From a bacterium (GTDB taxonomy: Bacteria > UBA4055), in NCBI GenBank assembly GCA_029559475.1, contig JAKQBN010000016.1:1-31252 (forward strand): 31,252 nucleotides of DNA, in the 5' to 3' direction. The position numbers and the translations under genes are program-made. The number at the start of each line of letters is the position of its first letter. Position 1 is the stretch's first letter. The notes beneath the pieces were generated by a model. It saw only the letters and a program-made list of their open reading frames with translations, did not search any database and had not been told where the DNA came from. This document shows, piece after piece, positions 13,407 to 27,234 of this stretch.

Positions 13407-13428
13407 TTATCCTTTCTATTTAAATTAC

Positions 13429-13763
13429 TAAGCCGGTCTGTAAGCCGAATTCTGTTATAATGGTCATTTATCTAACGCAACCTACCCTTCTTCCGGTACT
13501 TTCGCACTCGGACGAGCAGCCCGAAACGGAAGATTTATTTGGTCTTGCGCCGGATGGGGTTTACCTAGCCCGGCTGCCTTACGGCATCCGGCGGTGCGCT
13601 CTTACCGCACCTTTTCACCCTTACTACCTTTCGGAAGCGGTCTACTTTCTGTTGCACTTTCCGTGACATCGCTGCCCCCTGCCGTTAGCAGGCATCCCGC
13701 TCTATGGCGTTCGGACTTTCCTCATTCCGATATAATTCGGAACGCGACCATTCGACCGACTTA
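13429..13763 (-). ncRNA. rnpB: RNase P RNA (type A)
   Basis: The catalytic RNA of RNase P, which matures tRNA 5' ends. On the minus strand the conserved blocks appear in order: GAGGAAAGTCCGAACGCC (P4 and CR-I), GGTGAAAAGGTGCGGTAAGAG, GGCTAGGTAAACCCC (L15, with the GGU that pairs with tRNA CCA), GCGCAAGACCAAATAAATC, and ACAGAATTCGGCTTACAG near the 3' end (CR-V). The ends were set by P1: AAGTCGGTC at the 5' end pairs with GACCGGCTT at the 3' end. The RNA begins about 2 bases after the stop codon of the zinc-ribbon gene. No promoter was convincing at that junction, so processing from the nif3/zinc-ribbon transcript or a promoter inside that gene is likely. No T-tract terminator follows it. Confidence 0.96.
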
Positions 13764-15701: not shown

Positions 15702-15775
15702 TGGGGGTACAGGGACTTGAACCCCGGACCAACAGATTATGAGTCTGCTGCTCTAACCGACTGAGCTATACCCCC
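15702..15775 (-). tRNA. tRNA with CAT anticodon (elongator Met, or Ile2 read by lysidine)
   Basis: 74 bases folding as a full cloverleaf: acceptor GGGGGTA/TACCCCC, D arm GCTC..GAGC, anticodon stem GCAGA/TCTGT around CTCATAA, T arm CGGGG/CCCTG with loop TTCAAGT, discriminator A. CCA is not encoded; CAA follows the discriminator. The G1:C72 pair and the lack of three G:C pairs in the anticodon stem exclude initiator tRNA. The variable loop TGGTC and the T arm look rather like Ile2(CAT), but elongator Met cannot be excluded by eye. It has its own promoter and terminator. Confidence 0.95.
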
Positions 15776-23800: not shown

Positions 23801-23880
23801 GAATAAAAGAATAAACTTTCGTTATTAATATGTTAAAAAATCATTACTCTTTTCTGCAAATCTTTCTTATATTTGACTTC

Positions 23881-23964
23881 GGCCCTGGGGGTGCCTTTAC
23901 GGCTGAGAGGGAATATCCCGACCCTTGGAACCTGATGCGGATAATACCGACGGAGGAAAGAGGC
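23881..23964 (+). promoter_or_regulatory. TPP riboswitch (THI element)
   Basis: Aptamer sensing thiamine diphosphate at the head of the thiamine operon. Conserved parts in order: GGGGGTGCC, GGCTGAGA, the P3 hairpin GGGA-ATA-TCCC, ACCCTTGGAACCTGAT, GCGGATAATACCGACGGAGG. P1 appears to be closed by CCT (23884-23886) with AGG (23961-23963). The GGAGG at 23952-23956 belongs to the conserved core and is also a good ribosome-binding site for the ATG at 23965. No terminator hairpin follows, so control is likely translational. A TATATT at 23868-23873 may be the -10 box; no clear -35 was found. Confidence 0.95.
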
Positions 23965-24015
23965 ATGAACAATATTTCAAAAATTACAGCATACATGACA
24001 GCCGGTCCTTCGTGA
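23965..24015 (+). CDS. Putative 16-residue leader peptide ORF
   Basis: ATG at 23965 opens 16 codons (MNNISKITAYMTAGPS) and a TGA at 24013-24015. GGAGG lies 8 bases before the ATG, inside the 3' part of the TPP aptamer, so ligand binding should block its translation. The TGA overlaps the end of the 5' arm of the hairpin that covers the thiM ribosome-binding site. It has no recognisable homologue and could be chance, but the placement of both ends is what a coupling ORF would need. Confidence 0.5.
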   Translation: MNNISKITAYMTAGPS

Positions 24016-24040
24016 TCAATATAAACCATTAACGAAGGAG
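24006..24040 (+). promoter_or_regulatory. Hairpin masking the thiM ribosome-binding site
   Basis: TCCTTCGT (24006-24013) is an exact 8-bp complement of ACGAAGGA (24032-24039), with an 18-base loop. The 3' arm contains the GAAGGAG that serves thiM (ATG at 24051, 10 bases on). The stem has no T-tract, so it is an SD sequestor and not a terminator. Confidence 0.65.
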
Positions 24041-24050
24041 TAGAAAGATT

Positions 24051-24875
24051 ATGTTCGAGAACATTTTTAACAATGTCAGTAAGAAACACCCGCTTGTGCA
24101 CTGTGTTACAAATTATGTGACTGTAAACGACTGCGCCAATATTCTTCTTGCAGCGGGAGCCGCGCCTATTATGGCAGACGATATCGGTGAAGTTAAAGAA
24201 ATAACCGCTATTTGCAATGCGCTGGCTCTTAATATCGGCACGCTTAACGAAAGAACTATAAATTCGATGTTCGCAGCCGGAAAAGAAGCTGTAAGGCTCG
24301 GACACCCGGTGATCCTTGATCCGGTCGGTGCGGGAGCATCTGCACTCAGAACAGATACAGCGTTAAGACTCATGAATGAGATTAATTTTACTGTCATCCG
24401 CGGTAACATTTCTGAGATCAAGACCATATCAAAAGGAACCGGTACAACGAGAGGAGTTGACGCGGATGTGAGCGATGCTGTTACGGAAGCGAACCTCAAT
24501 GAAGCTGTCAGATTCGTAAAAGAAATCAGCCGGCAGAAAAACGCAGTCATCGCCGTTACCGGAGCAATAGACATTGTTGCTGATTCCGATAAGGCTTATA
24601 TAATTCGCAACGGTCATCCCATGATGTCGCGCATTACAGGAACCGGATGCATGCTTAATGCTCTTATTGCGGCATATTGTGGCGCGAATACAGAAAACAC
24701 ATTAGATGCCGTTGCGGCATCAGTCGCGGCCATGGGTATATGCGGAGAGATCGCTTACGAAAAAACGGTTGGAGAAAATGGCGGTACAGGAACATTCCGT
24801 ATCAGGCTTATAGATGCAATGAGCAATCTTGACGCTGAAACTTTCTGGAAAAGAATAAAAGTAGAGATCCGATAA
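24051..24875 (+). CDS. thiM: Hydroxyethylthiazole kinase ThiM
   Basis: 274 residues, standard length. It phosphorylates 4-methyl-5-hydroxyethylthiazole for thiamine salvage. Family motifs: PLVHCVTNYVTVNDCANI, GAAPIMADD, LDPVGAGAS, VIRGNISEI, and the active-site loop ITGTGCMLNALIAAY with Cys200. First gene of the riboswitch-controlled operon; its GAAGGAG site is in a hairpin. The fused kinase-synthase gene follows after 16 bases. Confidence 0.96.
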   Translation: MFENIFNNVSKKHPLVHCVTNYVTVNDCANILLAAGAAPIMADDIGEVKEITAICNALALNIGTLNERTINSMFAAGKEAVRLGHPVILDPVGAGASALRTDTALRLMNEINFTVIRGNISEIKTISKGTGTTRGVDADVSDAVTEANLNEAVRFVKEISRQKNAVIAVTGAIDIVADSDKAYIIRNGHPMMSRITGTGCMLNALIAAYCGANTENTLDAVAASVAAMGICGEIAYEKTVGENGGTGTFRIRLIDAMSNLDAETFWKRIKVEIR

Positions 24876-24891
24876 TTTATAAAGGTCAATA

Positions 24892-25944
24892 ATGAACAAT
24901 GTTTACAGGATAATAGACGCTAATGTCAACAGGATTTCTGAAGGATTGAGAACTTTGGAGGACTTTTTCAGGTTCGCTTCGCCTGATAATCAATTGGACG
25001 AGAAACTGAGAAACTTGAGGCATCTTGTCCGAGAAGCTCTGAAAGAATTCGACGGTCTTATGATATCCAGCCGCGAATCTTTGAATGATAACGGGCTTAT
25101 TTTGTCGCAATCGTCAGATATTGACAGAAGATCGTCCCGAAAAGAGTTTGTTTCTGCGAATTTCAAAAGGATAGAAGAAGCGCTGAGAAGCGTTGAAGAA
25201 AATCTTAAACTTACTGGCAAAAATGATAAATCCAAATTAATTGAATCAATCAGATTTTCGGTCTATGAACTTGAAAAACAGGCTCTTTCTAAGCTCATTA
25301 AAAATTTGCCGACAGGGATTTACTGTATAACGGCTGAAGAATTTTCCAAAGGAAGATCGAATTTATTCGTGGCTAAAGAAATGATCTCCGCCGGAATAAA
25401 AGTGATACAATACCGTGAAAAGGAAGAAAGAAAATCCAGAAAAGTTATGCTTGAGGAGTGCCGCGAGATCAGAAAAATGACCCTTGACGCAGGCGCATTT
25501 TTCATAGTGAATGATTATCTTGATATCGCTTTGCTTTCTGATGCTGACGGAATTCACTGCGGGCAGACCGATCTGTTAGTATCGGACATAAGACAGCTCA
25601 GCTCCGATCTGATGATAGGCGTTTCGACAGAAACCCCTGAACAGGGAGAAAAAGCAGTATCGGACGGCGCGGATTATATCGGAATAGGTCCTGTTTTTAA
25701 AACAGGTACGAAAAAAGATGCCGCTGAACCGGTCGGCTTGAATTATCTGAAATATGCTGCTGAGAATATTAAGATCCCGTTCGTAGCTATCGGGGGGATC
25801 AAAGAACATAATCTGGACCAGGTTTTGAGAACAGGAACTTCATCTATAGCTATAATCACCGATATCACCGAAGCAAATGACATAAAGGCGAAAATTTCTG
25901 CATTAAATAAAGTAATCGATAAATATAATAAAATTACGGAATAG
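24892..25944 (+). CDS. ThiD2-ThiE fusion: HMP-P kinase and thiamine-phosphate synthase
   Basis: 350 residues, much longer than a ThiE alone (about 210). Residues 1-125 match the ThiD2 family, a kinase that makes HMP-PP from HMP-P but does not act on free HMP: NRISEGLRTLEDFFRF, LRNLRHLVREAL, SANFKRIEEALRSVEE. From about 140 comes the ThiE TIM barrel, which joins HMP-PP to thiazole phosphate: GIYCITAEEF, VIQYREKE, FFIVNDYLDIAL, DGIHCGQTDL, GADYIGIGPVFKTGTKKDA, VAIGGIKEHNL. Fusion places two successive steps in one chain. Start behind AAAGG; thiC begins 3 bases after the stop. Symbol left blank because it is a two-gene fusion (thiD2-thiE). Confidence 0.93.
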   Translation: MNNVYRIIDANVNRISEGLRTLEDFFRFASPDNQLDEKLRNLRHLVREALKEFDGLMISSRESLNDNGLILSQSSDIDRRSSRKEFVSANFKRIEEALRSVEENLKLTGKNDKSKLIESIRFSVYELEKQALSKLIKNLPTGIYCITAEEFSKGRSNLFVAKEMISAGIKVIQYREKEERKSRKVMLEECREIRKMTLDAGAFFIVNDYLDIALLSDADGIHCGQTDLLVSDIRQLSSDLMIGVSTETPEQGEKAVSDGADYIGIGPVFKTGTKKDAAEPVGLNYLKYAAENIKIPFVAIGGIKEHNLDQVLRTGTSSIAIITDITEANDIKAKISALNKVIDKYNKITE

Positions 25945-25947
25945 AAA

Positions 25948-27234
25948 ATGAATTACACTACACAGATGGACGCAGCCTGTAAGGGTATCATAACAGATCA
26001 GATGAAGGATGTGCTATCTTCGGAAAAGATATCTGAAAGCGACCTGCTGAAATTCATGTCCGAAGGCAAGATCGTTATACCTGCCAATAAAAATCATAAG
26101 AATCTCAAAGGCATCGGTATCGGCAAAGGTCTGAAAACGAAAGTGAATGTAAATCTGGGAGTATCAAAGGATTGCTTTAATCTCGACATGGAAATGAAAA
26201 AGGTACATAAAGCCCTAGAATACAAAACCGACGCGATCATGGACTTGAGCACATTCGGAGATACTCAGGCTTTTAGAAAAAAGCTCGTTGAAACATCACC
26301 GGTTATGCTCGGAACGGTTCCGATCTATGATGCCGTCAGGCAGTATATAGACAAGCCGATAAAAGATATTACTGTTGACGAATGGTTCGAGATCACTAAA
26401 AGACATATCGACGACGGTATAGATTTTCTGACTATCCATGCAGGACTGACGAAGGAAGTTGTCAAGCGCGTAAAAACCAACCGCAGGCTCACCCATGTCG
26501 TATCCCGCGGCGGATCAATATTAATGGAATGGATGGAAGAAAATAATGCCGAAAATCCTTTCTACGAACATTTCGAAAGACTTCTCGATCTTTGCGAAGA
26601 ATCTGATGTGACTTTAAGCCTCGGCGACGGTCTCAGACCGGGATGTTTAAAAGACAGCACTGATGCTCCTCAGATCCAGGAGCTCATCATGCTCGGAGAA
26701 CTTACTAAACAGGCATGGAAAAGAAAAGTTCAGGTAATGATCGAAGGCCCCGGCCATGTTCCTTTGAATGAAATAGCCGCGAATATGCAGCTTCAGAAAA
26801 AACTCTGCCATGGAGCGCCTTTCTATGTTCTCGGCCCTCTTGTGACTGACATCGCGCCCGGTTATGATCATATCACTTCAGCTATCGGCGGCACGCTGGC
26901 CGCTGCCAACGGCGCGAACTTCTTATGTTATGTAACGCCTGCAGAACATTTAAGATTACCTAATCTTGACGATATGAAGGAAGGGATAATCGCAGCAAGG
27001 ATAGCGGCGCATGCGGCAGATATTGCCAACGGACTTCCCGGAGCTATGGACTGGGATAACAAGATGAGCAAAGCCCGTCATGATCTTGACTGGAAAAAGC
27101 AGATTGAATTATCAATTGATCCCGAAAAAGCGAAAAGGTACCGTGAATCAGCACAACCCATTGACGAAGATGTGTGCTCGATGTGCGGCGAATTCTGCGC
27201 GGTTAAAAGAAGCAACAGGGTGCTGGATAAATAA
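25948..27234 (+). CDS. thiC: Phosphomethylpyrimidine synthase ThiC
   Basis: 428 residues, the short form lacking the N-terminal extension of enteric ThiC. A radical-SAM enzyme turning aminoimidazole ribotide into HMP phosphate, the pyrimidine half of thiamine. Motifs: [71 protein letters not shown]. The C-terminal cluster ligands are Cys410-x2-Cys413-x3-Cys417, one residue shorter than the Cx2Cx4C of E. coli ThiC. Start 3 bases after the thiE stop, so likely coupled. Confidence 0.96.

Follow-up and report, generated by a model that had tools for sequence, protein, structure and literature searches.

A TPP riboswitch upstream of thiM with a start site descended from thiS and a candidate shared anti-Shine-Dalgarno arm

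The thiM-thiE-thiC genes of contig JAKQBN010000016.1 (assembly GCA_029559475.1, lineage UBA4055) are preceded by a predicted aptamer for thiamine pyrophosphate (TPP) and a short leader, which we analysed within a stretch of 31,252 nt (positions 1 to 31,252 of the forward strand; hereafter the window). The reading to which we give about half of our confidence is that aptamer and leader form a TPP-sensing translational OFF switch built on a single anti-Shine-Dalgarno (anti-SD) arm, and that a translation start inherited from thiS may still be used and help. Gene functions, switching and leader translation are read from sequence and predicted folds, and comparisons were made within a set of 13 genomes of the family, in which the layout with thiM is known from two members of one genus, the window genome and its nearest relative, G006. 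The elements concerned are the following.

23877..23975, + strand: TPP riboswitch aptamer (RF00059), scoring 65.9 bits in cmscan against a curated cut-off of 54.3
23950..23957, + strand: aptamer core strand ACGGAGGA, the 3' strand of P4 in the RF00059 alignment and the SD of the leader open reading frame (ORF), which may also pair with the arm as its anti-anti-SD
23952..23956, + strand: GGAGG, serving the leader ORF as SD just as it serves thiS in G004, G007, G008 and G009
23965..24015, + strand: leader ORF of 16 codons, peptide MNNISKITAYMTAGPS; its frame, alignment and operon synteny make it most likely a decayed thiS 5' end
24006..24013, + strand: anti-SD arm TCCTTCGT, with two possible pairing partners, 24032-24039 (-10.6 kcal/mol as a duplex) and 23950-23957 (-10.1 kcal/mol)
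24032..24039, + strand: 3' arm ACGAAGGA, covering most of the thiM SD; identical in G006

One arm with two partners

A genome search identified this as the only TPP aptamer of the window genome, and thiM, thiE and thiC lie downstream of it on the same strand. As pointed out in an earlier note on this DNA, all of whose sequence observations were confirmed, the GGAGG of the core is properly spaced for an ATG at 23965-23967 (8 nt), and the resulting 16-codon frame (ATG AAC AAT ATT TCA AAA ATT ACA GCA TAC ATG ACA GCC GGT CCT TCG TGA) ends with a TGA at 24013-24015, at the edge of the arm. The thiM SD, GAAGGAG at 24034-24040, lies 18 nt past this stop codon, with the thiM ATG at 24051. The earlier note had also described the arm as a perfect 8-bp complement of the thiM ribosome-binding region, and the observation stands: TCCTTCGT and ACGAAGGA form 8 bp, and so complete a match over the thiM SD arises in 0.01% of dinucleotide-shuffled leaders. 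What the note had missed is that the arm has a second 8-bp partner, the aptamer core ACGGAGGA, with which it forms one G-U pair among the eight. Pairing of this kind is found in 0.2% of dinucleotide shuffles, and in 2.1% of cases in a looser mononucleotide test with a 10-nt core strand. An ATG at SD distance from the core is expected by chance about 9% of the time and is weak evidence when taken alone.

The leaders of the window and G006 are about 78% identical, and the aptamer is well conserved. In G006 the arm reads TCCTCCGT; it is perfectly complementary to the core (-13.0 kcal/mol) and has an internal C-A mismatch with the thiM SD (-6.1 kcal/mol). The T-to-C change responsible converts the G-U pair with the core to G-C while breaking one pair with the thiM SD, leaving arm-core pairing at 8 of 8 positions in both genomes and arm-SD pairing at 8 in the window and 7 of 8 in G006. 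A shared arm is favoured because this sole informative substitution keeps the pairing with the core and weakens that with the SD. Both arms also share an ACG before the purine run, a feature required for a shared-arm switch but not for a plain SD hairpin, which points the same way. No such arm exists in the four relatives whose aptamer serves thiS directly (see below); their thiS holds at most a 6-nt, T-rich match. The window leader also lacks the terminator found in G003, G005, G011 and G012.

All folds reported here are predictions that take no account of TPP, of tertiary contacts or of ribosomes. When the leaders are folded step by step, arm-core pairing is in place before the thiM SD has been transcribed, with a probability of 0.999 in the window and 1.0 in G006; in the full-length, ligand-free fold of G006 this pairing stays (0.996-1.0). 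Forcing it in the window raises the accessibility of the thiM SD from 0.15-0.16 to 0.37, and the SD stays closed (0.15) when the aptamer is forced. The first five nucleotides of the aptamer, CUUCG (23877-23881), are complementary to the CGAAG within the thiM SD region (24033-24037) in both thiM genomes. This long-range pairing is used in the predicted folds of G006; comprising 5 bp only, it was treated as unsupported.

The proposed switch would work as follows. A new arm arose at 24006-24013, with evident complementarity to both the aptamer core and the thiM SD, which it would use in turn. When TPP is absent, the arm would pair with the core during transcription, leaving the thiM SD open; when TPP is bound, the core would be locked in P4 of the aptamer, and the arm, now free, would close the thiM SD. 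Initiation at the leader ATG may persist at low TPP, in which case a ribosome there would push in the same direction. The new arm probably does most of the switching, and the leader start is probably an accessory or a relic.

Several results weigh against this scheme. At full-length, ligand-free equilibrium the window prefers the arm-SD hairpin, with a probability of 0.98 and by 3.5 kcal/mol, as expected from the earlier note, which had placed a hairpin over the thiM start; therefore, the switch must be kinetic or otherwise helped. The pattern sought, with the SD open in the ligand-free and closed in the bound state, is seen in the folding intermediates of the window and not in the full-length equilibrium, and the difference is small in G006. 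There, thiM SD accessibility barely changes when the aptamer is forced (0.39 to 0.34), which is a weakness of the model, and the arm-SD hairpin is very weak, its -6.1 kcal/mol being the duplex energy before the loop cost. Finally, with two genomes sharing the layout, the comparison yields one informative substitution and no independent covariation.

Replacement of thiSGH by thiM

A TPP aptamer is present in 11 of the 13 family genomes. In G004, G007, G008 and G009, its GGAGG lies 8-9 nt ahead of the thiS start codon and is the sole SD there, which makes these direct-SD riboswitches. The window shares with them the aptamer (91% identical or nearly so), the GGAGG, the ATG at 8-9 nt and the locus, between YbbR and thiE-thiC; they differ in having a full-length thiS, followed by thiG and thiH, and no anti-SD arm. 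In the window, the aptamer SD and the ATG open an ORF of 16 codons only (22 in G006, with a different peptide). Gene order in the complete loci (G004, G007 and G008) is NfeD, YbbR (divergent), riboswitch, thiS, thiG, thiH, thiE, thiC, the G009 contig stopping within thiG; in the window and G006 it is NfeD, YbbR, riboswitch, thiM, thiE, thiC. No full-length ThiG match was found in the window genome or in G006, where only weak barrel-type matches occur, and no other family member has thiM. Judged by this synteny and these absences, thiSGH has been replaced in place by thiM in the window lineage. The genes now following the riboswitch are:

24051..24875, + strand: thiM, hydroxyethylthiazole kinase (NF006830, 1.6e-91; TIGR00694 above cut-off)
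24892..25944, + strand: thiE, thiamine phosphate synthase (PRK02615-like)
25948..27234, + strand: thiC, phosphomethylpyrimidine synthase

The best named matches of thiM are from Firmicutes (67% identity to Tepidanaerobacter). These matches, together with the absence of the gene from the other 11 members of the family, suggest that thiM was gained by horizontal transfer.

On the evidence of the relatives, the ancestral riboswitch controlled thiS directly and the aptamer GGAGG was the thiS ribosome site. The aptamer-embedded SD and the ATG of the leader are a start site by descent, since both open thiS in the four relatives. An ungapped alignment of the window leader with the 30 nt that follow the start codon of thiS gave a mean of 17.25 out of 30 identical positions over the four thiS genes, against a mean of 8.6 in shuffles (P 0.0001). 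Because of this alignment and the operon synteny, the 16-codon leader is most likely a stump of thiS and not a purpose-built leader peptide. The corresponding match of the G006 leader is weak (11.75 out of 30, P 0.10), which the alignment accounts for by a single-base insertion in G006; most likely, the window leader keeps the ancestral thiS frame and that of G006 is shifted. The assemblies being drafts, the one-base difference of G006 might in principle have arisen in assembly. An origin of the arm itself in codons further into thiS, as the Pro-Ser CCTTCG suggested, was considered and set aside, gapped alignments being non-significant in seven of eight comparisons; the lone exception, G006 against the thiS of G008, had a P of 0.004 before correction, and we do not claim the derivation. 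A second ThiS-family gene lies outside the window (G000:C8:9134-9325) in the window genome, where no full-length ThiG match was found, and is probably a paralogue with another sulfur-carrier role.

Four further relatives, G003, G012, G011 and G005 (loci L006, L007, L008 and L009), carry an intrinsic terminator directly after the aptamer and before thiS; in G005 the gene order is that of G004, G007 and G008, but the platform is this terminator. The thiC gene of G005 appears to be split into two frames (L106 1535-2808) by a frameshift or an assembly error. In G002 (L010), the TPP aptamer precedes not thiS but a membrane protein of at least 186 aa, possibly a thiamine-related transporter. Elsewhere in the window, a class A RNase P RNA (13425-13763, - strand) and a tRNA gene (15702-15775, - strand) are ordinary.

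Leader translation and other readings

The earlier note had proposed a relay, from aptamer to leader peptide to hairpin: TPP would block the aptamer-embedded SD, and at low TPP a ribosome finishing the leader would cover the 5' arm and free the thiM SD. Alternatively, such a ribosome might reinitiate at thiM. We hold the shared-arm switch above this relay, which we regard as a tentative second; either would be OFF at high TPP, and the two could operate jointly. The part of the relay that stood is its beginning and its target. In four relatives the SD and start codon of the leader belong to thiS, and the window hairpin, stable without ligand, needs something to open it. In the direct-SD relatives, moreover, thiS and thiG overlap as TAATG, so that the order of riboswitch, small ORF and coupled gene is probably ancestral. 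Between the two thiM genomes ATGAACAAT is unchanged, and neither leader ORF stops short of the 5' arm; yet chance will often leave 14 codons open as far as the arm, and the aptamer requires the core GGAGG regardless of the leader. The part that did not stand is conservation. The earlier note had looked to relatives for the leader frame, the TGA position and the 8-bp complementarity, and would have taken loss of the frame or of the complementarity as a refutation; both losses are found in part. In G006, the only comparable relative, a +1 insertion shifts the frame, the ORF runs to 22 codons with a different peptide, its stop moves from the first arm to the other (3') arm, and the hairpin drops from 8 to 7 pairs; thus, the position of the upstream ORF (uORF) relative to the sequestor is not conserved. 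The ligand-free fold of G006 also buries the leader's own SD in the core-arm helix (P 1.0), the opposite of what a relay needs, and a two-state switch, which is simpler, can employ this arm with no leader peptide at all. Coupling of a riboswitch to a uORF and a gene is known both from nature (PMC11260477) and from design (PMC5496857). On the other hand, in the pe20 Mbox of Mycobacterium tuberculosis, the most similar tested system, where reporters showed that the anti-SD toggles, removal of the uORF1 start raised output about 1.3-fold, an effect of opposite sign (PMC12810186). A variant, which we consider a little more doubtful still, is that of a natural ribo-attenuator born by gene loss, in which translation of the thiS stump would relay to thiM and the same arm would also be the anti-aptamer strand.

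Unlikely, in our estimate, is that the leader is an inert thiS remnant whose hairpin sets a constant level of thiM, with TPP control, if any, exerted in some other way, for instance by Rho-dependent termination after untranslated leader RNA. The leader does appear to be decaying, given the G006 frameshift and the identity of about 78% between the two species; the arm-SD hairpin is not conserved as a perfect stem; and the TPP switches of E. coli thiC, thiM and tbpA also use Rho-dependent termination (PMC11487190). Against this, chance is very unlikely to have produced the 8-bp match to the thiM SD, G006 has an identical 3' arm, and the aptamer is well conserved and so probably still read out. 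Control by transcription termination, although it has a precedent in the terminators right after the aptamer in four relatives, is very improbable here, no terminator-like site having been found between aptamer and thiM and no U run following the hairpin; a terminator platform in the window was rejected on these grounds.

Known systems and significance

The earlier note knew of no such relay. The idea is not new, however, since the same logic has been engineered in synthetic ribo-attenuators, in which a riboswitch ribosome-binding site precedes a short ORF and a second ribosome-binding site in a hairpin opened by the passing ribosome; these differ in using a 150-bp native ORF and a TAATG junction at the second start (PMC5496857). 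In nature, the ppe2 B12 riboswitch of M. tuberculosis controls a uORF, uPPE2, whose translation is needed for PPE2 expression (PMC11260477); here such dependence is proposed. In the ppe2 case, stop and start overlap as AUGA and the downstream gene lacks its own SD (PMC11260477), whereas thiM has one. The closest match in anatomy is the pe20 Mbox, with SD1 and uORF1 at the aptamer end, an anti-SD within uORF1 and then SD2, the anti-SD pairing with SD2 or SD1; it differs in its Mg2+ aptamer and its phylum, in that SD2 opens another small ORF, and in the participation of Rho (PMC12810186). The thiM and tbpA switches of E. coli also respond to TPP at the level of translation, and they resemble the switch proposed here in the TPP aptamer, the first-gene SD closed in the bound state, a competing pairing that breaks up the aptamer when no ligand is bound and a proposed kinetic, cotranscriptional control. 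In the window, by contrast, the core is a working-looking SD with an ATG from thiS, and the papers on E. coli describe no leader ORF of that sort (PMC3280964, PMC11487190). A literature search made mostly outside subscription journals turned up no account of a TPP switch with a comparable leader ORF.

A search for thiM at family and at phylum level, both covering the same 13 genomes, returned the aptamer-leader-thiM layout from G006 alone beside the window. Among thiM loci of Firmicutes, a pattern scan detected TPP cores upstream of 38 out of 80; short ORFs started from the core occur at a rate apparently not above chance, and core matches of at least 8 nt are few and mostly T-rich. These loci were dismissed as a test of the window leader, being too distant.

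Altogether, one small family uses three platforms for one aptamer: direct thiS SD, terminator before thiS, and short leader ORF with a shared arm before thiM. Their presence side by side makes the change of an expression platform visible step by step, and the window presents a riboswitch surviving the loss of the gene whose ribosome site is embedded in the aptamer. If the leader is needed, the window would hold a natural example of a design that until now has been the work of engineers; if it is not, the case would caution that a short ORF with its start in an aptamer can be a relic.
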